Shown piece after piece: positions 380 to 27,754 of a DNA stretch of 27,754 bases. Source of the DNA: a virus; IMG/VR virus record IMGVR_UViG_3300025112_000142, positions 1 to 27,754 of that record; one strand, written 5' to 3'. A program made the position numbers and the translations under genes. The notes beneath the pieces were generated by a model. The model had not been told where the DNA came from, did no database searches, and saw only the letters and a list, made by a program, of their open reading frames with translations. The first letter of the stretch is position 1. Every line of letters begins with the position of its first letter.

Positions 380-1648
380 TTACCCCGCCACCCCTTGCCA
401 CCACTGGGGCTGGTCGCTGTTGTGATAAAACGACAATCTTGGTTCTGTCTCGGTCAGAAACACGTTAAAACCGCGCTCACATAGCCAGGCATGCCAGCGC
501 TCCAACGCTTCGAGAATCTGACGCTCTGCATACGTGTGAATGTAGGTACGGTCGAGCTTCGATAGCGCATGGTTCAACAGCAGCTCACCGGCCAGATACT
601 CCACCCCCAAATCAGCCCACGTTGTACGGGCCAGCTTACGCAGGTCATGGGAATGCCACCGCGCACCGCTGGCACTCACCACTAGATCAAACACGGCTGA
701 ACGGGATAGCGGCTTACCCTTCGATGCACCTGGGAACAGATACACGCCCCGGTAACCATTGGCTTGCTGATAAGCGCGGTAACGGGTTAGCAGCGTCACG
801 GCCATGGGCGTTAACGGCAGGCGGTGTTGTCGCTTTGATTTTGTGTTGTCGGTGGGGATCGTCCAGGTGCGCGCTTCCAGATCGAACTGAGGCCACTTCG
901 CTAAACGTGTCTCCCCTATGCGGGTGCCAAACAGCAGCATTAACAACAGCAGGAAACACCCCGGCGGCTCGCACGAACGCAAGGCGCGTATCACCTCGGG
1001 CACATCAGCAGCGGTCAGCGCCCCCGCCTTAGCTGGGGTTTTCGCGTCGATGAAATCACCCACATTCACGCCTGCGAAGGGGTCAGCATCCAACAGGTTC
1101 AGCTTTCGGGCCTGCTTAAACGCGGCTTTGATCACCCCGAAAATCAGGCGAACGTACGCAACGGAATAATGCTCTTGCAGCGGCCATACCAACCCGCTAT
1201 CGATAGACGCAGGCGTAATGCCCGCCAGCGGCTGGGCACCGAACAGGGGCAATAGGTGCCGATTAACGGCGGTTTTGATCGATGATTTTCGAGTAGCGGA
1301 TAAACGGCCATGGGAAGCCGAACGGTCACGATACCAACACAGCAGGTCAGCCACGGTTTCCCACGCATCGACACCCACCGGCCCCGCCGGATCAAGCGCC
1401 AGCTTGGCCTCCAGCTCAGGCAACCGCGCCAGCAATGCGCGGGTGGTCAGCTCCGGGTAATTGCCCACCCGATGCCAATGGCCACGCCCACCCGCATAGC
1501 GCACCACGTACCAGCTGGCACGCTCACGGGAAGCATGAAAGCGCACCCGCACCGGGTAGCGCGGGTCGCGTAACTGGAAAATATCAGGGTCAGGCAGGTG
1601 CCGCTTAATCGCAGCATCAGACAGGGTAACAGCGAGGGTTTTAGGCAT
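380..1648 (-). CDS. int: Tyrosine recombinase (phage integrase)
   Basis: A 422-residue site-specific recombinase that would integrate and excise the element. The C-terminal catalytic domain shows the tyrosine-recombinase set: Arg in FGTRIGETR, the SHDLRK box (His-x-x-Arg), the second His in LLLNHALSK and the nucleophilic Tyr in RTYIHTY. The N-terminal half holds an arm-binding-like region and a SAM-like core-binding domain. I chose the ATG at 1648, which has GGAG 9 bases upstream; a TTG 15 bases further upstream would add five residues. A CCCCC/GGGGG hairpin (1674-1687) lies in the leader, and the 8-bp box array at 1710-1749 sits in the promoter region, so int is probably controlled by the box-binding protein. 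No attachment-site core was identified. Confidence 0.93.
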   Translation of the reverse strand: MPKTLAVTLSDAAIKRHLPDPDIFQLRDPRYPVRVRFHASRERASWYVVRYAGGRGHWHRVGNYPELTTRALLARLPELEAKLALDPAGPVGVDAWETVADLLCWYRDRSASHGRLSATRKSSIKTAVNRHLLPLFGAQPLAGITPASIDSGLVWPLQEHYSVAYVRLIFGVIKAAFKQARKLNLLDADPFAGVNVGDFIDAKTPAKAGALTAADVPEVIRALRSCEPPGCFLLLLMLLFGTRIGETRLAKWPQFDLEARTWTIPTDNTKSKRQHRLPLTPMAVTLLTRYRAYQQANGYRGVYLFPGASKGKPLSRSAVFDLVVSASGARWHSHDLRKLARTTWADLGVEYLAGELLLNHALSKLDRTYIHTYAERQILEALERWHAWLCERGFNVFLTETEPRLSFYHNSDQPQWWQGVAG

Positions 1649-1709
1649 TGGCTCAAACTCCAAGACAGCAACGCCCCCGCTCGGGGGTCAATGCGCCGGG
1701 CTGAGCCGT

Positions 1710-7049: not shown

Positions 7050-8198
7050 ATGTGGTTTACCAACATCACCATTTACCAGCTCCACAACGCCCCAGCGATC
7101 GACAGCATAACGCTGCATGAAACGCTGCAAGCAGAAGCCGCCAAGCCGTTAGGCAATACCGATGCCAAGCGCCACGGCTGGACACCCCCAGCAGGCCGCG
7201 CCAGCAACGCCTATCTGCACGAAAGCCAAGGCCACCGCCTGCTCAGCATGCTCAAACAGCAACGCATGCTGCCACCCAAAGTGGTGAAAGCAGCGGTAGA
7301 GGAAAAGGCAGCGGAGGTCGAAGCCAACGAAGGCCGCAAGGTCACGCGCAAAGAAAAAACCGCCTTCAAAGAACAGATCACCGAGGAGCTGCTACCCCGC
7401 GCCTTTATCGATAGCATCAAAATCGACGCATGGTGGGACGTAGAAAAAAACCGCATCATCATCAACAGCGGCAGCCGCGCCCGCTGCGAAGAGCTGTTAG
7501 ACCTGCTACGCGCAACCCTCGGCAGCCTCAAAGCCACCCCGCTCAGCACCCAAACGCTACCCATCCGCGCCATGACCACCTGGGTAAGCGACGCCCAAAG
7601 CCGACCCGCCAACCTGCAGCTAGGCGACAAAGCCACGCTCAAAGCCAAAGGCGACGACGGCAAAATAGCCGCCACGCAAGTGGATCTCGACAGCGACGAA
7701 ATACAGCAGCTACTCGAAAGCGGGCGGCAAGCCACCAACCTCGCCATCACCATCGATGACCGCGTCAGCGGCGTACTCACCGACACCCTACAGCTCAAAA
7801 GCCTGCGCTTTAGCGACCAGCTGATCGAGCAAGCCGACCACGCCGACGATGTCGACGACGCCATCGCCCGGCTGGAAAGCGACTTTTTCCTCATGGCCCA
7901 CGCCCTAAGCGACACGCTGGACAGCCTCATTCACATGCTGGGCGGTGAAACCCAGCGCAGCGAAACCGGCACCCGCCCCGACGACAGCCACCCCGGCGAA
8001 CAGATCGGCAGCTTCGAAGAAACCGACCCGCTACTGAAAGAAGCCATCGCGCTGGTAAAACGAACCGCAAACGGCAAACCCACCGTCAACACTCTGCAGC
8101 GGGCTCTAAAAATCGGCTACAACCGCGCCACACGACTACAAGGGCTGCTCATGGAACAAGGACACATTGCCAACCCCTACGGGCAGCCCACCCCATGA
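7050..8198 (+). CDS. rdgC: RdgC fused to an FtsK-gamma DNA-reading domain
   Basis: 382 residues. The first 300 or so are RdgC, a toroidal double-strand DNA-binding protein that restrains RecA: MWFTNITIYQL start, LPRAFIDSIKIDAWWD, LPIRAMTTW, IDDRVSGVLTDTLQLKSLRFSD. After an acidic linker (about 295-325) comes a winged helix from residue 326 that matches FtsK gamma: DPLLKEAIALV, LQRALKIGYNRATRL, MEQGHIANPYG, including the YNRAxR motif that contacts KOPS sequences. E. coli RdgC is about 300 residues with no such tail. The fusion could load RdgC at KOPS-like or phage-specific sites. It sits behind an 8-bp box array and is followed by a coupled zinc-ribbon gene. Confidence 0.88.
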   Translation: MWFTNITIYQLHNAPAIDSITLHETLQAEAAKPLGNTDAKRHGWTPPAGRASNAYLHESQGHRLLSMLKQQRMLPPKVVKAAVEEKAAEVEANEGRKVTRKEKTAFKEQITEELLPRAFIDSIKIDAWWDVEKNRIIINSGSRARCEELLDLLRATLGSLKATPLSTQTLPIRAMTTWVSDAQSRPANLQLGDKATLKAKGDDGKIAATQVDLDSDEIQQLLESGRQATNLAITIDDRVSGVLTDTLQLKSLRFSDQLIEQADHADDVDDAIARLESDFFLMAHALSDTLDSLIHMLGGETQRSETGTRPDDSHPGEQIGSFEETDPLLKEAIALVKRTANGKPTVNTLQRALKIGYNRATRLQGLLMEQGHIANPYGQPTP

Positions 8199-9164: not shown

Positions 9165-9321
9165 GCTATTTTTGTGCCCGCGTGATGCACTATGGCGGGC
9201 CGTGCGTGGGGCGCTTCGGCGCGCCGGGTTTCCAATGTCCCCGGTCTGCTAACCCGCGTACGGTTCGCCTCCATCGTTTAGCAGCGGTAGGCGAACTCCA
9301 ACAGACTTGGAGAATCGCAAC
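9165..9321 (+). ncRNA. C4-antisense-RNA-like leader of the antirepressor gene
   Basis: A GC-rich, structured leader between the repeat gene and the antirepressor. It has the hallmark block CACTATGGCGGGCCGTGCG, a UUCG-capped hairpin and CCGGG/CCCGG pairing, similar to leaders upstream of ash/ant genes in enterobacterial prophages and to the P1/P4 C4 RNA. Two mutually exclusive pairings are visible: CTGCTAA (9246-9252) with TTAGCAG (9278-9284), and GTTCGCCT (9263-9270) with AGGCGAAC (9289-9296), the latter close to the ribosome site GGAG. In P1/P4 the C4 RNA is cotranscribed with ant and shuts off its expression. Assignment is from memory of the motif. Confidence 0.55.
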
Positions 9322-10104
9322 ATGAAAACACCCACCATTTCAGTTTCTGGCGTTACCCTTCCCTATATCGAGTATCAGCAGCAGCCTGTTGTCACTTTTG
9401 CCATGATCGACGGCGTACATTCAAAGTCTAAAGCAACAGCACGGCGCTCTTTTCAGCGCAACAAAAAGCATTTTATTGAGGGTGAAGACTTCTATGCCCT
9501 TGATTCTGAAAGGTTGGGACAAATTGTCACTACCTATCCTGACCTGTTTCCGGCGGCTACTACACGCCTAACGCTCTTCACCGAAACCGGCTACCTCATG
9601 CTGGTCAAATCGTTTACCGACGACCTCGCTTGGCAAGTGCAGCGCCAGCTCGTCAAAAGCTATTTCCGCGTAAAAGGGGCGATGCAGCCCACCGCCGCCG
9701 AGCCCATCCCCACGCCCATCGACCACCGCCAGCGCGAACAGCTCACCAACGCGGCTAACGCCGTGTTTCGCAATTTCCACGGCATGCGCCAAAGCGCCAC
9801 CGGCTGGTTTTACAACGGCGTGCGAACCGACTACTGCCTAAAACGCATCGAAGATTTAAGCCAGGACGACTTCCCGGCAGTCATGGAACGCCTGCAAGCC
9901 CTACGCCCCAAGGTGCGCCAATACGAAGATTTTAGGTATGACTTTCAACAGTCGTTTTTAAAAGAGGTCGTAGGCGAAGGCCAGCCGTACACGGCATGGA
10001 TCAGCAAGCTCGCCGGTGGCCAACACCACATCGGCCAACGCCCCAACTGGAAAGCCATCGCCAAGCAAGTGCTAATCCACAACGGCCTACTCACCAAACA
10101 GTAA
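9322..10104 (+). CDS. ORF6N-domain phage antirepressor
   Basis: 260 residues. The N-terminal 110 match the ORF6N/Rha-type DNA-binding domain of phage antirepressors: VVTFAMIDGVHSKSKATARR, FIEGEDFYAL, LFTETGYLMLVKSFTDDLAW, VQRQLVKSYFRV. The C-terminal part (about 140-260) is a helical effector region with QRPNWKAIAKQVLIHNGL. It should relieve CI repression, which matters here because CI lacks the self-cleavage dyad. It follows a C4-like leader RNA, as Ant does in P1 and P4. The start at 9322 follows GGAG. Confidence 0.85.
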   Translation: MKTPTISVSGVTLPYIEYQQQPVVTFAMIDGVHSKSKATARRSFQRNKKHFIEGEDFYALDSERLGQIVTTYPDLFPAATTRLTLFTETGYLMLVKSFTDDLAWQVQRQLVKSYFRVKGAMQPTAAEPIPTPIDHRQREQLTNAANAVFRNFHGMRQSATGWFYNGVRTDYCLKRIEDLSQDDFPAVMERLQALRPKVRQYEDFRYDFQQSFLKEVVGEGQPYTAWISKLAGGQHHIGQRPNWKAIAKQVLIHNGLLTKQ

Positions 10105-12060: not shown

Positions 12061-12116
12061 AGCGTTATTGCGCGCTAGCGTTATTTCACGCTGTAACGCC
12101 AGCACGCAAAAACGCA
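12061..12116. repeat. 8-bp box array 7 (seven units), parA leader, proximal
   Basis: AGCGTTAT, TGCGCGCT, AGCGTTAT, TTCACGCT, GTAACGCC, AGCACGCA, AAAACGCA, in unbroken octamer register. Longest array in the window and directly upstream of the partition operon, so it is the best centromere/operator candidate (compare the parFG operator of TP228, which also repeats on an 8-bp spacing). Confidence 0.85.
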
Positions 12117-12139
12117 ACGTTAGCCAAGGGGAAACACCA

Positions 12140-12784
12140 ATGGGATACAAGATTGCCTTCGTGAGCCAAAAGGGCGGCGTCAGCAAAAGCACCCTAAGCC
12201 GGGCGCTGGGCACCACCTACGCCGCCGCTGGCTGGAATGTAAAAATAGCGGATCTCGACATTAACCAATCCACCTCTTTCACCTGGTTACAGCGCCGCCT
12301 CAAAAGCGGCGTAACGCCAGAGGTGGCCGTAGAGACGTTCGGCACGGTGGCCAGCGCTCTAAAGGTGGCCGACACCTACGACCTAATGATTTTCGACGGT
12401 GCGCCCCACGCCACCAAAGCCACCGCCGAAGTGGCCCGGCTTGCGGATCTCGTCGTTCTACCCACCGCGTTAAGCGTTGACGACCTTGAACCCACCGTAA
12501 GGCTGGCCAACACACTCACCGGCCAAGAAGGCGTGCCCATTGAGCGTATCGCCATCGCGCTGAGCAAAGTGGGCAAGAGTAAAACGCAGCTGCAGGATGC
12601 CCGCGCCTACCTCAGCCACACGCCCTATTTTGTACTCGATGGCCAAGTACCCGAGCGCGACGCGTTTGTATTAGCCCAAGATAAAGGGCTGTCGATTGTT
12701 GAAACCCCATTCAAAGGCCCGAAGGCCCAAGCGGATGAACTGATACAAAACATCATCAACCGCTTTGAATCGCTTGTTAATTAA
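12140..12784 (+). CDS. parA: ParF-type ParA partition ATPase
   Basis: 214 residues, the size of short class Ib ParA proteins. Residues 11-18 are the deviant Walker A KGGVSKST (a Ser replaces the usual second Gly); Walker A' is ADLDINQST and Walker B-like DLMIFDGAP follows at about residues 85-93. It would form a dynamic ATPase layer on the nucleoid that moves plasmid copies apart with the ParG-like protein. The ATG at 12140 has AAGGGG 8 bases upstream; an upstream ATG at 12068 would read through the box array and has no ribosome site. It is followed by array 8 and the RHH gene. Confidence 0.88.
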   Translation: MGYKIAFVSQKGGVSKSTLSRALGTTYAAAGWNVKIADLDINQSTSFTWLQRRLKSGVTPEVAVETFGTVASALKVADTYDLMIFDGAPHATKATAEVARLADLVVLPTALSVDDLEPTVRLANTLTGQEGVPIERIAIALSKVGKSKTQLQDARAYLSHTPYFVLDGQVPERDAFVLAQDKGLSIVETPFKGPKAQADELIQNIINRFESLVN

Positions 12785-12815
12785 GCGTTATATAACGCTA
12801 GCACGCTAAAACGCA
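12784..12815. repeat. 8-bp box array 8 (four units), between parA and parG-like gene
   Basis: AGCGTTAT, ATAACGCT, AGCACGCT, AAAACGCA. It begins on the last base of the parA stop codon and ends before the ribosome site of the RHH gene. Confidence 0.85.
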
Positions 12816-12827
12816 GGAGCTAACACC

Positions 12828-13070
12828 ATGGCAAAGCCAAGCATGAAACCCAGCAGCAAAGGCGCACCGCCCACAGCAGCCACCCCCGGCCCGGTAGTAG
12901 GCAACAACACCAGCAAGCCGGAAAGCGGCGAAAAGGTTCCGCTTAACTTTCGCGTTGATCCTGAAATGCGCCGTGAATTTAAAGCCTTCGCCGTAGAGCA
13001 TGACATGCAGATGGTGGACGTGCTCAAAGAAGCCTGGGCGGCGTACAAGCGGGAAAAAGGGAAGGGCTAG
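12828..13070 (+). CDS. ParG-like ribbon-helix-helix centromere binder
   Basis: 80 residues. Residues 1-35 are a disordered Pro/Ser/Lys tail (starting MAKPSMKPSSKGAPP); residues 37-75 are a ribbon-helix-helix: VPLNFRVDPEMRREF as strand plus helix A, then MQMVDVLKEAWAAYK as helix B. Tail plus RHH is the ParG design; ParG tails stimulate the ParF ATPase and modulate DNA binding. The gene follows parA by 43 bp with AGGAG before the ATG. It is the best candidate to bind the eight arrays of 8-bp boxes in this window. Confidence 0.82.
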   Translation: MAKPSMKPSSKGAPPTAATPGPVVGNNTSKPESGEKVPLNFRVDPEMRREFKAFAVEHDMQMVDVLKEAWAAYKREKGKG

Positions 13071-15414: not shown

Positions 15415-16380
15415 CTAGTGTCGTCGCTGCCGGTCTAACCACTCTTCATACGGCGGGTATTTGATGCGTACCAGCTTGTTAACCTCGGCATAGCTGGCAC
15501 CGGGGTTATTCGTCACTATCTCGGCAAAATACGCGGCGGCTTCGCGGTTATAGCGCCGCTGCAGCTCTTTCTCGTCGTTAACGTCCGGCAGATCCGCTTT
15601 ACCTCGGCGCTGCTTCTGCATCGCCTTGGGGCCGCTGCCTGCCATCGCCAAGCGGCGTCGGGCTTCGGCGGCGTCGTGTGCCTTGGGGTACTGTTCGCGG
15701 TATTTGCGGCGGGCCTTCTTAATGCGGTTGCTGCACCAGTCGCGGAACTCCTTAAACTTCTGGTAGCCCACACGCCCCAGCGCCAGCAGAAAATCGGGGT
15801 TGAGCAGCTTCACGGCAGGCCGCGCTCGCTTCGTGCCGTCGGCTTTCACTTCATGCTGCAAATGCACAGTAAACGCGCCCGCCAGCTTTAAGCGCCGGAA
15901 GGCCCGCCAAAAGCGTTGGCTGGGCTCCGGGGCGTCGGGGGTGCTGCCGGGGGCCAGCAGGCCCGCCACGCGGGCAATTTCCGCACAGCTGCGATGTTTA
16001 AAACCACCATCCGCTAGCGGGGTGCCCACGCGCAGGCTGGCGAACTCGGTAAACTGGATAATCGCAGAAAGCACCAGCGACTCAGCGGCGCGGGCCTCAG
16101 ATCGGTTACAACGGGGGTTGCCGTCAGCGTTGGCCTTGCCGTTCAAATTCGCCAGCGTGGGCAATAGGCCGGGGCTGGTGTAGTAGGCTTTGGCACCGTC
16201 TACCAGCGCTTGCAGTGTGGCGGGTAGCCGCCCCTTTTTAACGGGCTGGCAATAGCGCTCAAACTCGCCTTTAGCGGGGTTATGCCCGCACCGGTTACCG
16301 GTGCCCCACCACTTGCCGTGGTGTTCGTATGGCACGCGCCCCCACGTGAGGGGCTGCGCGTTCTCTGCTGCAGCATCCAT
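15415..16380 (-). CDS. repA: IncFII-type RepA-like replication initiator
   Basis: 321 residues. The middle has the layout of IncFII/IncB-type RepA proteins: a helical SLVLSAIIQFTEFASLRVG, a winged-helix-like HRSCAEIARVAGLL followed by RFWRAFRRLKLAGAFTVHLQ, then LNPDFLLALGRVGYQKFKEF and a very basic helix RIKKARRKYREQ. It would start replication at the origin that lies downstream. The N-terminus (WGRVPYEHHGKWWGTGNRCG) has Cys/His but I do not recognise it. ATG at 16380 chosen; the ribosome site is weak (GAG), consistent with leader-controlled translation. Expression is probably limited by the antisense RNA at 16437-16517 and by a CI operator on its promoter. Confidence 0.55.
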   Translation of the reverse strand: MDAAAENAQPLTWGRVPYEHHGKWWGTGNRCGHNPAKGEFERYCQPVKKGRLPATLQALVDGAKAYYTSPGLLPTLANLNGKANADGNPRCNRSEARAAESLVLSAIIQFTEFASLRVGTPLADGGFKHRSCAEIARVAGLLAPGSTPDAPEPSQRFWRAFRRLKLAGAFTVHLQHEVKADGTKRARPAVKLLNPDFLLALGRVGYQKFKEFRDWCSNRIKKARRKYREQYPKAHDAAEARRRLAMAGSGPKAMQKQRRGKADLPDVNDEKELQRRYNREAAAYFAEIVTNNPGASYAEVNKLVRIKYPPYEEWLDRQRRH

Positions 16381-16436
16381 TTGCAAAATCTCGCTTGAGA
16401 CTTGCCCGCGCCTTGTGCAGCAGTTAAACTCTGAGG

Positions 16437-17264: not shown

Positions 17265-17900
17265 TCAATCCCACTCAGTCGACCAGTCCAGCGTAAGCGG
17301 ATCAGTCCCCGCCGCTACCGCGTCAACGTGCTGCCCTTCCAGCTCGATCAGCGCGGCGCGGCGTTGGCCGATTTGGCGTAGCGCGGTTTCTACATCCGAT
17401 ACCGGGTGCTGGGCGTGGTGTTTGCCTGCGCTGTCTTTCCAGCTCGCAAACGTGGTCATGCCTGCGTCAGCGGCGGCGGTGAGCGCTTCTTGCATTGCTT
17501 GCCGATTGTCCGCGCTGCCGTCGTAATGTACGCCGTTGAGGGTGACGCCAAGAGCCTCAGCGGCCTTGCGCTGGGCCTTTACCTGCGGCTCCACCTGGGC
17601 GCGGTGGTAGTCGAGCAATTTAGCGGCATCGAAAAACGCGGTGTCGTCGCTTTCAGTTGTGCCGTGCTGCACGTAAACGGCTGCGTCATGGGTGCTCAGG
17701 CCTGCATCTTTAATCGCGTCTAGCCGCTGTTGCTGCTCTGGCGTTAGCGTTAACGGCTCTATCTGCAAATCAGACAAATGCCCGTGCTGGGCAATTAGTT
17801 GCTCAAAGTAGCGGCGGTCGTCTGCGTAGTGTGTGCGCTCAACATCGTTATCGTAAAAGCGTACTTTGTACTGCTTGGGGGTCATATCGTCGCGTAGCAT
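17265..17900 (-). CDS. Tail-fibre-associated protein with DUF4376-like C-terminus
   Basis: 211 residues. The N-terminus (MTPKQYKVRFYDNDVERTHY) resembles short phage tail proteins; the C-terminal 100 residues have the DUF4376 pattern seen in tail-fibre assembly or tail-fibre-linked proteins: LGVTLNGVHYDGSADNRQAM, LTAAADAG, WKDSAGKHH, VSDVETALRQIGQRR, LIELEGQHVDAV. The start at 17900 has GAGG 6 bases upstream and overlaps the 3' end of the reverse transcriptase. It is the last gene of the tail/DGR operon and may help fold or attach the variable tail protein. Confidence 0.65.
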   Translation of the reverse strand: MLRDDMTPKQYKVRFYDNDVERTHYADDRRYFEQLIAQHGHLSDLQIEPLTLTPEQQQRLDAIKDAGLSTHDAAVYVQHGTTESDDTAFFDAAKLLDYHRAQVEPQVKAQRKAAEALGVTLNGVHYDGSADNRQAMQEALTAAADAGMTTFASWKDSAGKHHAQHPVSDVETALRQIGQRRAALIELEGQHVDAVAAGTDPLTLDWSTEWD

Positions 17901-18940
17901 AGTGGCCTCACGTGGAAACGTTGGTTGGTGAAATATATGTAGCGGGTGCGCTGGCAGGCGGTGGTAATGAATCGCTCGCACTCTGCGAGCTGGGCATAGC
18001 TGTACCAGCTGTTAAGCGACTGCAGCGCCTCGTTGGGCGTTAAGCGAAACGCGTGCAGCAGCCGATCAAACGCGCCTAGGCGCTTAATGATCCGGGATTT
18101 AGCTTTAGAGGTTAGCGTGATGCGTGCCGGGGTGATGCGATACCCCAGCGCTTCCAGCCCTTGCTGCGGGCGCAGTGGGCGGATAAAGCATTTGCGGTCT
18201 GGAAAAGTCAGGCGTATTACGTCGCGCCCAAAGGCGCGGACAGCCGCCAGCACATCGCCCGCATGGGCTTTGCCGTCAACGATCATTATGAGATCGTCGG
18301 CATAGCGCACGTAATGCCGCACGCCAAGCCGTCGCTTTATATGCTGATCAATTTCGTTCATTAGCACATTGGCTAACAGTTGAGACGTTAAATTACCCAG
18401 CGGCAAGCCAATATCATTAGGCGAGCTATCGATAATCTTGTCTAAGAGCGCAAGCGTTTTAGCGCAAGTTATCTTTTTCCTTATAATGCCTTTAACAACA
18501 TCGTGATTAATGCTGTAAAAGAACTTTTGAACGTCGGCCTTTATAATCCAGGGGTCGGCGTAATGTCTTGACGCGCTGCGCATGTGCCGCTGAACTTGCC
18601 TTACCGCTTTATGATTGCCTTTGTTTCTTATGCAGGCGTAGCTGTCGTGTATAAACTTGGGCTCGTAAAAATCGCGAAGCGTTTCGTTAATGGCATGCTG
18701 AACAATCTTGTCTCGATACCTGGGGGCATATATCACGCGCTCTTTAGGCTCAAACACCACGAACTCTTCGTAATCTTCGGGCGTGTAATGGCCGGAGGCT
18801 ACTTCACGCCTTAGCCTCTCCAGGTTTTCTGTTTCGTTGGCAGCAAAGCGTATAGCGGCGGCTTTGAATTTCGGGCTAGCGGTTTGGGTTTTGCGGTACG
18901 CGGCGTAAAAATTGGCTTCTGAAACAATGCGCTTAAACAT
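17882..18940 (-). CDS. DGR reverse transcriptase
   Basis: 352 residues. Group-II-like reverse transcriptase with the features of the DGR clade: ERVIYAPRYRDKIVQHAI (motifs 1-2), KADVQKFF with catalytic Asp (about residue 136), IGLPLGNLTSQLLANVLMNE (about 177-196; the GNLTSQ form is characteristic of DGR enzymes) and HYVRYADDLI with the YADD catalytic box (about 213-216). No maturase or endonuclease domain, and a length normal for DGRs. It copies the template-repeat RNA with adenine mutagenesis and delivers the cDNA to the variable repeat. ATG at 18940 chosen because AAGG lies at good distance; an ATG six bases upstream is too close to it. A terminator lies between template repeat and this gene. 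Confidence 0.95.
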   Translation of the reverse strand: MFKRIVSEANFYAAYRKTQTASPKFKAAAIRFAANETENLERLRREVASGHYTPEDYEEFVVFEPKERVIYAPRYRDKIVQHAINETLRDFYEPKFIHDSYACIRNKGNHKAVRQVQRHMRSASRHYADPWIIKADVQKFFYSINHDVVKGIIRKKITCAKTLALLDKIIDSSPNDIGLPLGNLTSQLLANVLMNEIDQHIKRRLGVRHYVRYADDLIMIVDGKAHAGDVLAAVRAFGRDVIRLTFPDRKCFIRPLRPQQGLEALGYRITPARITLTSKAKSRIIKRLGAFDRLLHAFRLTPNEALQSLNSWYSYAQLAECERFITTACQRTRYIYFTNQRFHVRPLCYATI

Positions 18941-18950
18941 TGCCATCCTT

Positions 18951-18988
18951 AAAAAAAGCGAGGGCGCTAATACGATGAGTAGCGCCCT
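18951..18988 (-). terminator. Terminator/attenuator between the template repeat and the RT gene
   Basis: Minus strand: AGGGCGCTA/TAGCGCCCT stem (18980-18988 and 18961-18969), 10-nt loop, then CGC and seven U (18951-18957). It ends 11 bases before the RT start and would give a TR-containing RNA distinct from RT mRNA. Confidence 0.85.
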
Positions 18989-19107
18989 CTTACGGTTTTC
19001 TGCCGAATGAACTTAATCACTGGCAGCAGACAAACACCCCCTTGCAGTGTGTTAAACACCAACATCATCTCTTGCAAGCCGTAACCGACAAGATGGAAAA
19101 ACAGCAG

Positions 19108-19206
19108 GGCGGGCCGCCAACCGATATTGCTATTCGCATTCGACGCGGTATTGCGATCGAAGTTCGCCAAGTCGTCATTGCCACGGTTAGCGCGATTGGA
19201 GGAGTT
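19108..19206 (-). repeat. DGR template repeat (TR)
   Basis: 99 bp, aligned without gaps to the variable repeat at 19640-19738 (constant offset 532). 24 adenines in the sense strand; 11 of them differ in VR and none of the other positions do. The sense strand carries nine Asn codons (AAC/AAT), the classical design that yields many amino acids by A mutagenesis. Its 3' side is the GC-rich GGTTGGCGGCCCGCC. The TR 5' end overlaps the stop codon of the accessory gene. Confidence 0.97.
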
Positions 19207-19564
19207 ACGGCGCTTGCCTGGGCCTGCTAGCAGACTTCATAAATCCTACCAGAATTTTCTTAAGCTCGGTAATTTTTAGATCAATCTGGGAAAAGAACCC
19301 GGCGCTGATATAGCGCTCGTTCCTGCTGAGTCGAAAAAGCGTCACTAAATTATTCATATAAGCTGCCGCCTCTTGAAGCGCCGTCTTGCGTTTACTGGGC
19401 ACCATTTTAGCCAACCCTAGCCGCTCTAACAGATTTACAAAGCAGCCCTTAATATGCGCACAAAGCGCGAACTTTTCGGACTTAGGGTAGTTTTTAAACG
19501 CTGGGTAGACCTGGAAAAATAGCGCTTCTGCTTTCGCATAAAGAATGAGGCTATCACGTTCCAC
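19205..19564 (-). CDS. avd: DGR accessory variability determinant (Avd)
   Basis: 119 residues, basic, four-helix-bundle type: ERDSLILYAKAEALFFQVYP, FALCAHIKGCFVNLLERLGLA (region), TALQEAAAYMNNLVTLFRLSR and FSQIDLKITELKKILVGFMK. This is the Avd family, which forms a barrel that binds the reverse transcriptase and TR RNA. Start chosen at GTG 19562-19564 (AAGGA 8 bases upstream); a longer frame would begin with TTG inside a hairpin. The stop overlaps the TR. It lies between the variable gene and RT, the usual DGR order. Confidence 0.85.
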   Translation of the reverse strand: MERDSLILYAKAEALFFQVYPAFKNYPKSEKFALCAHIKGCFVNLLERLGLAKMVPSKRKTALQEAAAYMNNLVTLFRLSRNERYISAGFFSQIDLKITELKKILVGFMKSASRPRQAP

Positions 19565-19588
19565 TGTGCTTATCCTTACGCTACACGT

Positions 19589-19614
19589 GCGGGTCAAGCC
19601 CGCCCGCTTCGCGG
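19589..19614 (-). other. Hairpins just downstream of VR
   Basis: In sense orientation, CCGC-GAA-GCGG (19614-19604) and GCGGG-CTTGA-CCCGC (19603-19589) follow the target stop codon by 2-12 bases. DGRs such as BPP-1 need a hairpin/cruciform shortly after VR with a GA-rich loop for efficient retrohoming. The first hairpin, 26 bases from VR with a GAA loop, fits that role; its short stem makes this tentative. Confidence 0.55.
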
Positions 19615-19615
19615 A

Positions 19616-20665
19616 TTAGTTATTAGGGATTAGTTCCAAGGCGGGCCGCCAACCGAGACCGCTATTCGCAGTCGACGCGGTAGTGCGAACGAAGTACGCC
19701 AAGTCGTCAGAGCCACGGTAAGCGCGAGTGGAGGAGTTTGCGTCACTCGCCTCTTGCGTCCAGCAGGCGCGGCCATTGCCGCTGATATTCAGCTCAGCAT
19801 TGCTGAAGCCTGCCCAGTTCGCTCCCACCTGGGGGCCGCCGTGGCGGTCGAGTCGCATGCCATCAGTGCCGTCATCGGTCGGCACACCGGTATGCACGCG
19901 GTACATCAGCTCGTTCCACTCTGAACCGCCGCCGATATTCATCTGAGGCATGTCATCGGTAAAAAATAGCGGATCTGATTCGGGGAACGGATCAGCGCCA
20001 GCCCCGGTTAGTAGCCGCACGATAAAGCGGTTGCCGCCGTGCTCTACCGTCGTATATTGATTCGTGGGCGTGCCGCGTGGGCTCTTGCCGTCGTCGTTCG
20101 TGCCGTACACGATGCCGCGTGCATACAAATGATCCCAGCTCACGGTGTGCATAAACGACTGTTTTGCCACAAACAACACTTTGCCGTGGCGCGCGAATTT
20201 CAGCCAGCCCGCGCTGCTGTTTTGCAGCACGCCTTCGGTGACGCCCAGCTCAAACGCCAAACGGTCACCGGAATAAAACTCCCCCGCCGACACTTCGCCG
20301 AAGTAGCCAGCACTCATGTCGCCCGCGATCAGTTCTTGCGGCCCTGGGCCGTAGGCCAGCACGGCGCTGCCTGCGTTGCTGCCCACGTAGTAGACCGACA
20401 CAAACAGCTGCAAGCCGCTGCCGCTGGCAATGAACTGGTCGCCCGCTTCTAAATTAAAGCTCTTTTCAAGCGCCACTTCGTCCGCTACGGCTTTGCTGCT
20501 GAACACGGTGTGGGTGGTGTTCGCTGCCGCGTTGAAATACTTGAGCGTTAGATTGCCGCTGCCGGTGCATAAAATGCTGTGCGCGGTGGCTTCCGTGCCC
20601 TGCGGTACTGTGAAAATCGTTTGATCACTACCCGTGAGGGCTTTTGCGTGTGTGCGTAAGGCCAT
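19616..20665 (-). CDS. DGR variable tail protein (C-type-lectin-like target)
   Basis: 349 residues. The N-terminal 105 are a beta-rich region (FTVPQGTEATAHSILCTGSG, LYVSVYYVG-like strands); residues 115-349 look like a C-type-lectin/formylglycine-enzyme-like fold: GWLKFARHGKVLFVAKQSF, FIVRLLTG, SEWNELMYRVH, ACWTQEASD, and the end GWRPALELI, typical of DGR targets. The last 33 codons or so are the variable repeat. As a receptor-facing tail protein it would let the phage change host binding. AGGAAA precedes the ATG. It is the last tail gene before the DGR machinery. Confidence 0.9.
   Translation of the reverse strand: MALRTHAKALTGSDQTIFTVPQGTEATAHSILCTGSGNLTLKYFNAAANTTHTVFSSKAVADEVALEKSFNLEAGDQFIASGSGLQLFVSVYYVGSNAGSAVLAYGPGPQELIAGDMSAGYFGEVSAGEFYSGDRLAFELGVTEGVLQNSSAGWLKFARHGKVLFVAKQSFMHTVSWDHLYARGIVYGTNDDGKSPRGTPTNQYTTVEHGGNRFIVRLLTGAGADPFPESDPLFFTDDMPQMNIGGGSEWNELMYRVHTGVPTDDGTDGMRLDRHGGPQVGANWAGFSNAELNISGNGRACWTQEASDANSSTRAYRGSDDLAYFVRTTASTANSGLGWRPALELIPNN
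19640..19738 (-). repeat. DGR variable repeat (VR)
   Basis: 99 bp at the 3' end of the target gene. Compared with TR: 11 substitutions, all at TR adenines (sense), at plus positions 19657, 19659, 19660, 19671, 19683, 19689, 19696, 19710, 19711, 19720 and 19728. Nine codons change: Asn to Thr, Tyr, Ser, Tyr, Thr, Thr and Gly, Asp to Val, and Ile to Leu. The 3' GC-rich end matches TR; beyond it the sequences part, so this side acts as the mutagenic homing start site. Confidence 0.97.
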
Positions 20666-21180: not shown

Positions 21181-21705
21181 CTATAGAAAGTGCATCAACA
21201 GTGGATCGGGACGGCTATCGACGTATCGGCGAACGGAATACGCCTCGCTTGCCGCCGTGCCCGCCGGGTCAAAATCCGCAACGTCAGCACCAGCGGCGGT
21301 GCCTGCGTCGGTTATCTCGCTGAGCGCGTGGGTATGCGCGCTGGCCGGGTATGTCGCGGGTTTGTCGCTCACCTCAGCAAACGATGGCCAGCGGGTGGCG
21401 GTTGCGGGCTTGCTGCCGATTGCCTGCCATTCGTGACCATGCGTCGCCGGTGGGTAGGTGCTGGGCTTTTCGTCGATATCGTCCCACGTGTGCGTGTGCT
21501 GAGCGGCGGCCTTGCCTGCCAGCAGCTGCTCTATCTGGGCACGGGTGTAGGTGTCGGTGATGTCGCGTATCTGCTCACCGAAGCGGGCATAAATCCGCTC
21601 GCTGGCGAGGTTAAACGCCAGCTCGCCTTCGCCCATGTCGTTAATCGTTGGTACAGCCTGGGCATCGTTTGAGATACGCAGGCCCACGTATTGACGGGCA
21701 GGCAT
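21181..21705 (-). CDS. Tail fibre protein with HTH-type short repeats
   Basis: 174 residues. Residues 70-130 repeat a tail-fibre motif around H-x-H and KPATYP: AQHTHTWDDIDEKPSTYPP, HGHEWQAIGSKPA, EVSDKPATYPASAHTHALSE. These repeats occur in lambda-like side tail fibres. C-terminus SRPDPLLMHFL. TAATG links its start to the upstream stop. Likely forms the fibre stem on which the variable tip sits. Confidence 0.72.
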   Translation of the reverse strand: MPARQYVGLRISNDAQAVPTINDMGEGELAFNLASERIYARFGEQIRDITDTYTRAQIEQLLAGKAAAQHTHTWDDIDEKPSTYPPATHGHEWQAIGSKPATATRWPSFAEVSDKPATYPASAHTHALSEITDAGTAAGADVADFDPAGTAASEAYSVRRYVDSRPDPLLMHFL

Positions 21706-22578: not shown

Positions 22579-24060
22579 TCAGCCCCACAGCGTTAGCGTT
22601 AGTTTGTTGCGGGACGTGTCCGGCTTGCGTCCCACTACCAGAAAATCACGCCCGGCGGCATAGCCCAGACGCGGCGTAATAATGCGGACGGAATCCCCTA
22701 AGCGCAGCGTTGGGGCCGCTGTTACACGGGCCTCAACGCTCACGCTATCGCGCCGGGGCGACAGCAGTTCCAGTACGCGATCAGCCACTGCTTGCCCCTG
22801 CCCGCGCGTACCCAGCCGTGATGCAATGCGCAGGGTATCCGCTAGCGGGTGCCGGTCCTTGGTCGCTTCGCTGGTGGCCACTGCCTCGCGCACCGCTTTT
22901 TCCAGCCGGGCGGCGCGGCCATCGCTCACCACGCCCGCCAGATCGGTTTGCGTGGTTTCGATGGGGTCGGCTTCAACGATCACTTCGCCCACGGGCAGGC
23001 CGTTACTGCCCCCGCCCGAGGCGTCGCGAGTGATCGTGAGTATTTGATAATCGCGCAGCGTCAGCACCGGGGCAGCGGGTGCTGCAATAACACCCGCCCG
23101 GAAACTGCCCGCTGCATCAATGCGGCAGTAGCCGCCAATGCTGGTGGCAATGCGCTCCAGCAGCTCCAGCGTTGATGCCTCATCGGTTAGCAGTAGGCGT
23201 ATATCACCCACTGCGTTTAGCGCGGCAACGTCATCACTGTGCATGTGCTGCCCGGCATCGCTCGCTATCGCCGCCATCACATCGCCTGCGCGGGTTTGTG
23301 GGGCGTCCGCATCCACCGTTAATTGGCCGACAGGCGATACACCCAGACGGATATAGCCGTTGATACGCCGCCACTTGCCGCGTGGCGGCTGCCATTCGCT
23401 CCACTGGCCAGCGCTCGGCCCCTCGTTTTCCAACGCCTCTAGGCTGCTGTAGTCGCCGTCAAACTCCAGCGGTACGCCGTTGTCGTAAACGGCGCTAACC
23501 GTGCAATCCGCATCACTGATTTGATAAATCAGTTTTTGGCTATTGACCTGCACCGGGGGCGCATTGCGCGCCTGCCCGTACAGCCGGGGTTTTACCGTGC
23601 CGCCTATATCATCATCGGTACCCTCCAGCCCATCGGGGGCGACGTTTGTGCCTGCATAGCGGGTGTTTGGGTGGGGTTGCTGCAACGTTTCTGCCGGGTC
23701 GCGCAGTTTGATCGACACCAACCGACGATCAAACCCGACCCGCGCCACTGCGCCCCGCCACAGCTCGGAAACGCCGCTATCATCAGCCAGCGATAACACC
23801 GCCAGCCGCCCATCCATGGCGTAGTCAGCAAGGTAATCAAAGCGGCCCTCCGTGTTGATTAACGTGGTTTCGCCGTACCCCGAACGCGCTGCGTTGCGGA
23901 TAATATCGCCCGCAAACATGCCCGCCTGATACAGCCCGGCTTGCTGAATCCCCACCCGCCAGCCGTGGCCCGCCGGGTCGCGGTAAGCGTCGGACGCAAA
24001 GCGCAGCGTCACCGCTGCGCCCGCCGGGTCCAGGGCGTCTATGCGCATTAGCCAAATCAT
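22579..24060 (-). CDS. Tail hub-like protein
   Basis: 493 residues, the length of siphovirus tail-hub or baseplate proteins that follow the tape measure gene. Repeated beta-strand pairs with conserved Gly/Asp turns (LRFASDAYRDPAGHGWRVG, LYGQARNAPPVQVNSQ), and a C-terminal domain (LRLGDSVRIITPRLGYAAGRDFL) typical of ring-forming hubs. It overlaps the tape-measure stop by four bases. The assignment is by gene order and general character. Confidence 0.55.
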   Translation of the reverse strand: MIWLMRIDALDPAGAAVTLRFASDAYRDPAGHGWRVGIQQAGLYQAGMFAGDIIRNAARSGYGETTLINTEGRFDYLADYAMDGRLAVLSLADDSGVSELWRGAVARVGFDRRLVSIKLRDPAETLQQPHPNTRYAGTNVAPDGLEGTDDDIGGTVKPRLYGQARNAPPVQVNSQKLIYQISDADCTVSAVYDNGVPLEFDGDYSSLEALENEGPSAGQWSEWQPPRGKWRRINGYIRLGVSPVGQLTVDADAPQTRAGDVMAAIASDAGQHMHSDDVAALNAVGDIRLLLTDEASTLELLERIATSIGGYCRIDAAGSFRAGVIAAPAAPVLTLRDYQILTITRDASGGGSNGLPVGEVIVEADPIETTQTDLAGVVSDGRAARLEKAVREAVATSEATKDRHPLADTLRIASRLGTRGQGQAVADRVLELLSPRRDSVSVEARVTAAPTLRLGDSVRIITPRLGYAAGRDFLVVGRKPDTSRNKLTLTLWG

Positions 24061-27000
24061 AAAGCCCCCCTTAGGCGCGACTCACTCGCCATATCCTCCA
24101 GCGCACGACTGCTTTTCTTGGCCTCGCTGATTTGCCCGTTAAATCCTGCCTGCTGAACAGCGACAGCGGCGGCAGCGTGACGGTTATTTTCTTCCTGCAA
24201 GCGCTTGTTTTCCTTGCGTGATTCTTGCAATTCGCGCTTAACGTCTTGCAGCACCTGCAGCACGTCATTACTACCAAGCGCGGGAAATTGCGGCAGGGGC
24301 ACATTAGGCATGGGTAGCTCTAGCGGGCCATCAGGGATGCGCATCAATCCAGTGGCGTCAACGCCCAATCGCCCGCCATCGCCGCGAGACAGAGGAACTA
24401 TCGCTTCGGGATCTGCTTCGCCCATCAATCCCATGTCGAACAGCGTTGGGCTTGAGACGATAGAGTTAGTCGCTACTCTGCCCATCTCGAAGACGCCGCC
24501 CTTCGCAAACGGCGCGGCTTTTCCTGTTACGTTTTTGTACTGCCTGCGCAGAGATTCCAGCTCGCTAGTCGTTGATGCGGGAGGTTTAGCGCGAATATCC
24601 CTTAGCTCGCGCTTCACTCGATCAAGCTCTCGCCGGGCCTTTTCAAGATCCGACGATACCTGCAGCTGCTTTTCGACTTGATCAAGCACGGCATACGCGC
24701 GGGTATCACGAATACGGCCCGCCCCTGCAATGTTGATCCACCCGTCAGTGTCCTTTGCAACAATTTTTCTGACGCGATCAAGATCGGCTTTAGTGGGGTT
24801 ATCGCCCATCAGGTCTTTGAATAGCTTTCGCTCGCTAGCATCCCTGCCAAAGCTGTTTTTTTGCTGCCTGCCTAATGATGAGATCTGCTTTTCTAGACGC
24901 GACTCATCGGACTTGCTAGCCGTTAGGCGGCGGTTGTACTCGCCCCTAGCATGCCCTACCCGTGAAGCCTCAAGGCGACCTTTCCCTTCTATATCAGCCG
25001 CCTTTTTCTCACGCTCAATACGCGCAACTTCCGCTTGAGCTACGCCCAGCGCGTTGATCGATTGGGTCAGGCTTTTAATGCCGCTGTTCAGCCCTACGAA
25101 CTGGTCTGTCGTTAGCGTCATCTCGCGCACTAGACTATTCAGCTCTTTCAGCTGATCGTTCGCACGCTCTTCTAGGCTCTTGGTGTTGTCTTCTGTCCCT
25201 TCTCCCGTTCGCGCCAACGCTTCTAACCGACTAATCGTCCCGCTTCCATCCTCGTCTAGCTTCCCGAAAATGTTGCGCAACTCTTTATCAGTCGCCATGC
25301 CGCTAAACGCTTTGCTGAACTCCTTGTAATCAATCAGACCATCAAGGCTTGTATCAATGTCGCTAAACATCGGCGAAAGCGCGCTTCCGATGCCTTTAGC
25401 AAGCCCCGCCAAGCGGCTGTTAGTCGCGCCCTGTCGGCTCCATATGCGGCGCCCGTTCACGTCCGTTTTATTCAGTAGCGAGTTGATTTGTCCGTCAGTT
25501 GCCAGCCCTCTTAACGCGGCCCGAACCTCTGCCTGAGTCAACTGCTCTTTGCCCAGCCGCTTCGACTCTTTTGTTAGCACTCCCGCTAAAATGCTGTCGG
25601 TGGGCATGCCCGCAATGATGACACTCTCTAAGCCGCTGATAACGCCGTCGGCATTTAGATCCACCGCGCGCACAATCCTGCGCAGCTGTTGATCGGTCGC
25701 GATGCCATCTAGGCCTTTTGACAGCTCGGAAAACGTTAATTTGCCGTCTAAATTGCCGTCGAGCATGTCAAACGCAGGGTTTAAGCTCTTAGCAATGCCA
25801 CCTGCCAAGCTGCCCACACGGGCGGCGGTCAGCTCTTGGCGAGTGATAATGCCATCACCGTTCACATCAACTTCACGAATCAAACGGCTAATTTCGGCAT
25901 CCGTTGCGATGGGGGATAGCGCGCTGCGAACCTGTGCATGCGTGAGCTGGTTTTTATCCAGCTCATTCATTTTGTTACGCAGCAGCGTACCCAGCACCGC
26001 ATCTGTAGGTAGTGACTGAATGATGACGCTCTCTAAGCCATCCATCACGCCGTCACCGTTGAGGTCTACTGCACGCATAATCGCGCGCAGTTCGGCGTCA
26101 GTGGCTTTGCCGCTCATCACGATGGCCAGCTGCTCACGGGTTAGCACGCCGTCGATACCGCCCGCCAGGGTGGCAAAGTGACCCGCTAAATTACTGGCGA
26201 TGTTGCTGGGGTTATCACCGCGCAGCACGTCACTAAGCTGGCTGCTAATGCCCTGGGTTTGCTCGCGTAGTGCCTGTTTCACCTCCTCGGCTATGTACTC
26301 TTCGGCGCTAATCTGATCAGGCAAATCCTTCAACGCGTCTAACACATCGCCCTGAATGCGCTGGAACGCGCCACCGCTGGCGTACATCGCTTCCCCTGCA
26401 GCCAGGTATTGCTCGGCGTACTGGGTAATGCTTTGTAGCGCGTTGCGGTCGCCTGATTGGGCAAGCACCAGCTGCCGGGCGAACTGGTCGCCTGCTTCGG
26501 TTAGGTTCATGCCTGGGGTGCCAGCGGTCGCATTTTGCTGGTCTACCCACTGGCTAATGCCGTTAAACGTGCTGCTGAGCTGGTCGTTCACCTGGGCGAG
26601 CGAACGGGCATACTCCTGCCCAGCCCGCGTAGCGTCCTGCTGTGCGGCGGCTTCGTCTTCCATGGCCCAAATGCGGCGTTGGGTTTCCTGCAACAGCGGG
26701 TCGAAGCCTTGCAGCTCTCGCTCACGCTGCAGCGCTAAGGCGGTTTGCTCGTCACCCAGCAGCCCTAAGAGCTGTAGCTGCTGGTCGAATGACTGCTTTT
26801 CAAACGCGGCGTAGGCGTTACGCACCTCGTTTTCTAGCGTGCTGATCTCGCCGTTTAGCTGGCTGAGGCGGTCGGCAAACACATCAACGCCGTTGCCAGT
26901 TTGCTCAAGCAGGGTTTGCAACCGGTCGAACGGGCCCGCTAGCTGCAGCAGCTGCACATAGTTACGCTGACCCGACTCGGTTAAGCGGTTTTGCTGCTCC

Positions 27001-27754
27001 ACCAGCTGCCGGAAACCCTCACGGGTAGACGGCAGCGCTAGGCCCATGGCACGCAGGCTAGCGGCAACGTCCTGCTGTAAATCAGCGGCGCGCTCGGCAT
27101 CGCTGAAAAACGCCGTGTAATAGCTGTTCTGCAAGCTGGCGAGCTGATCCACGCCGCCAGCCATCTGCGCGATGCTATCAGCGGCGCGCAATGCGCCAGC
27201 GGCTGAGGCGTCAAACTGCAGGTTGAGGCGGTCGCTACTGGCATCTAACAACTGCATGGCGTTAGCTGCCTGCACCACACGACCGGTCAACTGTTCGGCA
27301 TCCAGCCCTAGCCCGCGTAGGGAAGCGGAAAAATCACCATCTAACACATCGACCACGGCAAGCGTACGCGTGGCGAGCTGGTTAGCGATCCCGGCGGCGT
27401 CGCTGGCGTTCAAACGCACAGCCTGGGCGGCGTTGGCCATGGCCTGCGTTTTCTCTGCGCCGTTGTCTAGGTTGGCGACCGCCCCCACCATGGCGTTATC
27501 TAGCGCGGTGATGCCGTCTAAAAACGCCTTGGCGTTATCAAAGCCGTCGAACGTTTCTTCCAAGCGGGCCGTGTTAGGGTCATAAAACCCTACGGTGCCC
27601 AGCGCCCCACGGCTGTAAACACCCTCCCCGTAGTTTTCAAACAGGCCGCGACGCCCTGGGTCTACGTCCTGACCTACGGTGGCTAGCTCGAATTTAGGGG
27701 CGGTTTTGCCGCCACCAAACAGGCTGCTAATACCCTTAACGATGCCGTCAGCAA
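24057..27754 (-). CDS. Tape-measure-like tail protein with EF-hand array (partial)
   Basis: At least 1231 residues; the frame is open to the right edge, so the N-terminus is missing and the TTG at 27563 is not a true start. Long helical, Gln/Ala-rich stretches over the N-terminal half and a C-terminal coiled coil (ELQESRKENKRLQEENNR) fit a tape measure protein. Between plus 25210 and 26140 it carries tandem EF-hand calcium-binding loops: DLNGDGVMDGLE, DVNGDGIITRQE, DGNLDGKLTFSE, DLNADGVISGLE, DTSLDGLIDYKE and DEDGSGTISRLE, plus degenerate ones (DVNGRRIWSRQ). They form two copies of a module of about 134 residues. Unusual for a tape measure; could make tail assembly or DNA release calcium dependent. 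Confidence 0.75.
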   Translation of the reverse strand, partial: ADGIVKGISSLFGGGKTAPKFELATVGQDVDPGRRGLFENYGEGVYSRGALGTVGFYDPNTARLEETFDGFDNAKAFLDGITALDNAMVGAVANLDNGAEKTQAMANAAQAVRLNASDAAGIANQLATRTLAVVDVLDGDFSASLRGLGLDAEQLTGRVVQAANAMQLLDASSDRLNLQFDASAAGALRAADSIAQMAGGVDQLASLQNSYYTAFFSDAERAADLQQDVAASLRAMGLALPSTREGFRQLVEQQNRLTESGQRNYVQLLQLAGPFDRLQTLLEQTGNGVDVFADRLSQLNGEISTLENEVRNAYAAFEKQSFDQQLQLLGLLGDEQTALALQRERELQGFDPLLQETQRRIWAMEDEAAAQQDATRAGQEYARSLAQVNDQLSSTFNGISQWVDQQNATAGTPGMNLTEAGDQFARQLVLAQSGDRNALQSITQYAEQYLAAGEAMYASGGAFQRIQGDVLDALKDLPDQISAEEYIAEEVKQALREQTQGISSQLSDVLRGDNPSNIASNLAGHFATLAGGIDGVLTREQLAIVMSGKATDAELRAIMRAVDLNGDGVMDGLESVIIQSLPTDAVLGTLLRNKMNELDKNQLTHAQVRSALSPIATDAEISRLIREVDVNGDGIITRQELTAARVGSLAGGIAKSLNPAFDMLDGNLDGKLTFSELSKGLDGIATDQQLRRIVRAVDLNADGVISGLESVIIAGMPTDSILAGVLTKESKRLGKEQLTQAEVRAALRGLATDGQINSLLNKTDVNGRRIWSRQGATNSRLAGLAKGIGSALSPMFSDIDTSLDGLIDYKEFSKAFSGMATDKELRNIFGKLDEDGSGTISRLEALARTGEGTEDNTKSLEERANDQLKELNSLVREMTLTTDQFVGLNSGIKSLTQSINALGVAQAEVARIEREKKAADIEGKGRLEASRVGHARGEYNRRLTASKSDESRLEKQISSLGRQQKNSFGRDASERKLFKDLMGDNPTKADLDRVRKIVAKDTDGWINIAGAGRIRDTRAYAVLDQVEKQLQVSSDLEKARRELDRVKRELRDIRAKPPASTTSELESLRRQYKNVTGKAAPFAKGGVFEMGRVATNSIVSSPTLFDMGLMGEADPEAIVPLSRGDGGRLGVDATGLMRIPDGPLELPMPNVPLPQFPALGSNDVLQVLQDVKRELQESRKENKRLQEENNRHAAAAVAVQQAGFNGQISEAKKSSRALEDMASESRLRGAL

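Follow-up and report, generated by a model that had tools for sequence, protein, structure and literature searches.

A BPP-1-type diversity-generating retroelement on a Halomonas-type phage-plasmid, and its slot in related elements

The window, by which we mean the whole 27,754-nucleotide stretch analyzed here (an IMG/VR record that is a 27.7-kb linear fragment with an integrase), almost certainly carries a complete BPP-1-type diversity-generating retroelement (DGR) on a Halomonas-type temperate phage with partition genes, that is, a phage-plasmid. Judging from its sequence and those of its relatives, this DGR is complete and of the usual kind, and it is probably active. The DGR itself is ordinary, and the part worth following is the slot that it occupies between the target gene and a DUF4376 gene.

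Components of the cassette

The initial annotation had placed a complete DGR at positions 17882 to 20665, with a target gene containing VR, Avd, TR, and a reverse transcriptase (RT) in this order on one strand. These parts and their coordinates proved correct, and all of them are encoded by the minus strand:

19616 to 20665, minus strand: target gene (349 aa), with an N-terminal beta domain (residues ~1 to 95) and a VR-carrying C-terminal domain predicted to be C-type-lectin-like
19640 to 19738, minus strand: VR, 99 nt, within the 3' end of the target gene
19640 to 19654, minus strand: IMH-like GC-rich 3' end of VR, GGTTGGCGGCCCGCC, the same as the 3' end of TR (19122 to 19108), as in an IMH/IMH* pair
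19589 to 19603, minus strand: predicted stem-loop GCGGG-CTTGA-CCCGC, ~36 nt beyond the IMH
19205 to 19597, minus strand: avd (accessory variability determinant), identified by Pfam and PHROG matches
19108 to 19206, minus strand: TR (template repeat), 99 nt, beginning at the avd stop codon
18947 to 19104, minus strand: spacer RNA in the TR-RT interval, with covarying secondary structure
18951 to 18989, minus strand: terminator-like 10-bp stem plus T-run, the last spacer helix, just before the RT start and covarying in relatives
17882 to 18946, minus strand: DGR reverse transcriptase (354 aa) with LGNLTSQ and YADD, identified by Pfam and PHROG matches
17265 to 17903, minus strand: DUF4376 gene, directly downstream of the RT, with tail-fiber-like PHROG matches; bounds the cassette slot on the right

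As also proposed initially, TR and VR align without gaps. Over the 99 nt of this alignment, all mismatches (11/11) are located at TR adenines, and VR is free of non-adenine drift; extension to 102 nt adds a single C-to-T difference just beyond the IMH. The pair received a scan score of 88, whereas 20 Markov-shuffled versions of the region scored 18 at most, and the same scan recovered the annotated TR/VR pair of BPP-1 as a control. The 24 adenines of the window TR occupy first and second codon positions of the VR frame (12 each) and never third ones, and nine codons are AAY. A stop can be reached from no codon by adenine mutation. Because the adenines are confined to these two codon positions, about 1e14 stop-free protein variants (calculated as about 1.6e14) would be accessible. 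Neither the window nor the Halomonas plasmid described below contained a further VR with the window IMH.

The RT carries both DGR-type motifs named by the initial annotation, GNLTSQ and YADD, and matches Pfam RVT_1 (1e-22) and the PHROG ‘Reverse transcriptase’. Its best PDB match is 8ub7 (E 5e-47), which is labeled ‘Reverse transcriptase’ alone in the match table and which we take to be the BPP-1 DGR RT. A tree was built from the window RT and 22 others (18 labeled DGR and 4 non-DGR), with BPP-1, ANMV-1, VP58.5, ACA1, and YPCBV-1 among its members. A position outside the DGR clade had been set beforehand as the outcome that would speak against a DGR. The window RT instead grouped within the DGR set with support of 100/100, in a tree with a small outgroup (three group II intron RTs and one unclassified RT) and a warning of long branches joining between the DGR and non-DGR groups.

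The likelier start of avd is the GTG at 19564, which matches the Halomonas qaidamensis annotation and the ATG of two related virus contigs (L005 and L007). Window Avd matches Pfam bAvd above the cut-off (3e-15) and PHROG 3206 (‘Avd protein of DGR’), whereas its NCBIfam Avd match is under the cut-off, and a search of PDB sequences with the Avd profile gave no match. Pfam and PHROGs thus each identify both Avd and the RT on their own.

For the target protein, a lectin-like fold ending in GWRPALE had been proposed. The C-terminus reads GWRPALELIPNN, and the predicted fold is supported by a confident model. A model based on six close homologues had a poor C-terminal part (pLDDT <40), whereas modeling of the C-terminal domain from a 33-sequence alignment yielded a pLDDT of 93.9. 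Comparison of this domain using VIA-align gave Z values of 7.5 for Lcl, 7.4 for PvdO, 7.2 for TvpA, and 5.9 for Mtd, all of which are moderate (<8); the top rows are mostly C-type-lectin-like folds, and EgtB/FGE-type proteins are also listed. Foldseek alone ranked TvpA first with a weak E of 2e-3, and the target profile had no match among PDB sequences. VR falls within a domain that is modeled as C-type-lectin-like.

Among viral models, the domain matches large-phage virion structural proteins (E to 2.5e-21), which are matched by sequence as well. Such proteins of PhiPA3, Noxifer, PhiEaH1, and SCTP-2 share the C-terminal domain of the window target at 30-40% identity and have a GWRP-type end. 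Unlike the window target, they are present in several copies per genome, and most of the loci that we fetched lack an RT or Avd match. Because of these fold and virion-protein matches and the position of the gene in the tail operon, we infer receptor binding by the target. The protein would be a variable lectin-like tail tip that probably selects the host receptor.

The cassette also has predicted DNA and RNA elements. VR and TR share a 15-nt GC-rich end resembling an IMH/IMH* pair, and the stem-loop after VR is retained in relatives with altered outer pairs. This stem-loop is predicted in 5/5 folded sequences and beats nearly all shuffles in three of them; L005 and L007 show it less strongly. 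Between TR and RT, the spacer is predicted to form five helices, with 97.6% of pair cells kept among seven sequences (L050 and L051 were too divergent for this alignment) and nine pairs changed on both sides. Its covariation score exceeds those of all 500 shuffles and all slid versions, in a test that is biased in its favor because the structure was derived from the very alignment that was scored. The last helix (18951 to 18989) is missing from the terminator prediction list and exceeds the loop limit of that method; it might be where the TR RNA terminates. A promoter search of the window revealed no clear promoter.

The BPP-1 cassette (mtd-avd-TR-brt) is the same as that of the window in gene order, strand, adenine-only TR/VR differences, and Avd, and likewise in its IMH-type 3' end, post-VR stem-loop, and C-type-lectin tail-tip target (PMC12875486). 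The BPP-1 system has also been rebuilt in laboratory E. coli (PMC12875486). The two systems differ in several respects. The RTs are ~32% identical over 92%, the window stem-loop lies ~36 nt past the IMH whereas that of BPP-1 is described as directly after it, and the target of the window has a different N-terminal region and matches no solved structure by sequence. In the mechanism that we propose, a transcript spanning avd, TR, and the spacer would be reverse-transcribed by the RT together with Avd, and TR adenines would be misread by the RT. The mutated cDNA would then replace the VR segment in the 3'-terminal part of the tail-tip gene, with replacement anchored by the GC-rich IMH and aided by the post-VR stem-loop. 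Priming, the retrohoming route, and receptor binding are presumed from BPP-1.

Adenine-specific variation among relatives

We compared nine TR/VR loci, comprising the window, the H. qaidamensis plasmid, and seven virus contigs. Of the 133 TR-VR mismatches in this set, 132 are located at TR adenines. Although up to 22 bases separate the TRs of different loci, each VR is the same as its own TR at non-adenine positions, with one exception in L007. This tracking of each VR with its own TR points to repeated TR-to-VR copying rather than a one-time duplication.

Comparisons between individual loci give the same picture of VR variation. The window and L002 have identical TRs and spacers, and their VRs differ at 14 of the 22 A positions, while the 74 other positions are all the same. 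The H. qaidamensis XH36 plasmid is the same type of element with its own DGR TR/VR pair (14/14 mismatches at A), although its record lacks a DGR label and lists a ‘reverse transcriptase/maturase’ and a ‘four helix bundle protein’; of the 22 A positions that it shares with the window, 15 differ between the two VRs. For L005 and L010, which are possibly from related samples, an 8,443-nt alignment has two differences, both at VR sites opposite TR adenines (chance 7e-6 if the two substitutions were random). The initial annotation had suggested looking for adenine-position diversity of VR and had named identical VRs in all isolates as an outcome against its proposal; the VRs of relatives are not identical and differ almost solely at TR-adenine positions. 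The L005/L010 pair provides strong indirect evidence that the DGR has been recently active in the family of the window, where activity is judged at the population level and the window VR is a single snapshot.

Target-domain relatives with a DGR are also present on 94-150-kb contigs (L050:3001-6702, L051:243-3585, and L052:3001-6343). Their RTs are 44-46% identical to the window RT, and all of their TR/VR mismatches are at A. Pattern scans for extra VRs or TRs returned no new contigs. In L007 (L007:6001-7018), the RT is split into two frames by a frameshift, which may be genuine or may stem from the assembly.

Other explanations for these observations are less probable. The window DGR might have been active formerly and now be silent, such that its parts look intact and no longer work. 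We have only one snapshot of the window VR, and the L007 frameshift together with L039, L049, and L038, in which the cassette was lost or is absent, indicates that decay does occur in this family. Nevertheless, we consider a silent DGR unlikely, given that the RT, Avd, TR, and IMH of the window are intact, the 99-nt core lacks the drift noted above, and L002 has the TR of the window with another VR. It is far harder to believe that the RT is of the group II intron, retron, or Abi type and that the repeats reflect ordinary gene duplication. Although the NCBIfam group II intron RT model matches the protein, it does so at 127 bits against a curated cut-off of 300 bits, the tree places the RT with DGR RTs, and a duplication would not concentrate nearly all differences at one base.

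Yet another explanation concerns the role of the diversified protein rather than the existence of the DGR. C-type-lectin DGR targets are also found on bacterial surfaces, as with Treponema TvpA, and the window target might serve a purpose besides receptor choice, such as surface display or adhesion in a lysogen. This seems quite improbable for a target gene in a tail operon whose domain is common to virion structural proteins of large phages.

The slot between the target and DUF4376 genes

A DGR occupies the slot in the window, L002-L007, L009, L010, and L014, where L006 is cut before the target, which shares a contig with L043. In L008, the RT and DUF4376 genes are seen, and the contig begins inside the RT. 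The slot of two other relatives (L038:4138-4839 and L049:3879-4565) contains a gene for a 228-233-aa protein that matches PHROG 953 (‘HNH endonuclease’) and, weakly, AP2. In a third (L039:4050-4072), the slot is empty. There is no RT anywhere in the records of L039 (45 kb) and L049 (44 kb).

L038, which carries the endonuclease gene in place of the DGR, nonetheless retains a frozen VR. This VR has 15 differences from the window TR, of which 12 fall at adenines (p 3e-7). This bias suggests that the L038 VR was once diversified or was acquired from a phage that was. The endonuclease genes of L038 and L049 are 64% identical and their targets are 61% identical, which argues that this arrangement is not recent in both.

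One possible, though doubtful, reading is that the slot hosts interchangeable diversifying devices, namely a DGR, an HNH/AP2-type endonuclease gene, or nothing; the cassette-less loci are only three, and L038 is a 6.4-kb contig. If so, the DGR would rewrite the tip gene base by base, and the endonuclease could spread or exchange the tip gene by homing. In open-access text, we found no report of a DGR replaced by a homing endonuclease.

The carrier element

The initial annotation had described a phage with plasmid features, and the gene content of the window and its closest named record agrees with this description. That record is the H. qaidamensis XH36 plasmid (NZ_CP080628.1; circular, 45,853 bp), which covers 71% of the first 25 kb of the window at 81% identity. 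It encodes a capsid, portal, terminase, ParA, integrase, tail genes, and the DGR. Phage structural and plasmid partition genes thus occur on one element, and the window itself has the tape measure, ParA, and ribbon-helix-helix (RHH) genes, whereas the capsid, portal, and terminase are seen in the plasmid relative only. A megablast search of a phage collection gave no DNA match to the window. The following features of the window are located outside of the cassette:

380 to 1663, minus strand: integrase
9188 to 9275, plus strand: C4 antisense RNA, followed at 9307 to 10104 by an ORF6N antirepressor
12068 to 13070, plus strand: ParA-like partition ATPase and small ribbon-helix-helix gene
24060 to 22579, 22577 to 21705, 21705 to 21181, and 21172 to 20675, minus strand: four genes upstream of the target
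24057 to 27563, minus strand: tail tape measure gene, probably cut short by the end of the window, whose product has EF-hand repeats (Pfam EF-hand_7, 2e-27)

The order of the four upstream genes is conserved in H. qaidamensis and L003, and the gene at 21705 to 21181 has tail-fiber matches. The H. qaidamensis tape measure homologue is annotated as an ‘EF-hand domain-containing protein’. The window also has an S24-type repressor, and its C4 antisense RNA and antirepressor are arranged in a manner resembling P1/P7-type immunity. A gene at 7050 to 8198 (plus strand) encodes a fusion of RdgC with an FtsK gamma domain. With an integrase and partition genes on one element, both integrated and plasmid states could be possible. 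From its position, our guess for the replication gene is 15418 to 16386, and no clear iteron array was seen near it.

Neither the ParA nor the replication gene candidate of the window has a match in L009, L010, L039, L049, or L050. The H. qaidamensis plasmid retains both, and L002 retains the replication candidate. This distribution suggests that the tail/DGR module resides on several backbones. We infer a Halomonas-type host from the one plasmid relative.

DGRs on temperate phages are also carried by Vibrio phage VP58.5, a linear plasmid prophage, and Pseudoalteromonas phage ACA1, which differ from the window in having a separate RT branch and another target. Because VP58.5 is a plasmid-like prophage (cited in the reference list of PMC6199706), it provides a precedent for the combination of a DGR with a phage-plasmid.

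The value of the present analysis lies in a family of DGRs that resides on Halomonas-type phage-plasmids and has a cultured relative, H. qaidamensis XH36. With this strain, experiments could address DGR activity, host range, and how being maintained as a plasmid affects diversification. Furthermore, the covarying spacer RNA can be compared with the TR-RNA of BPP-1, and the close relatives with and without the cassette make it possible to study how a DGR is gained, lost, or replaced.
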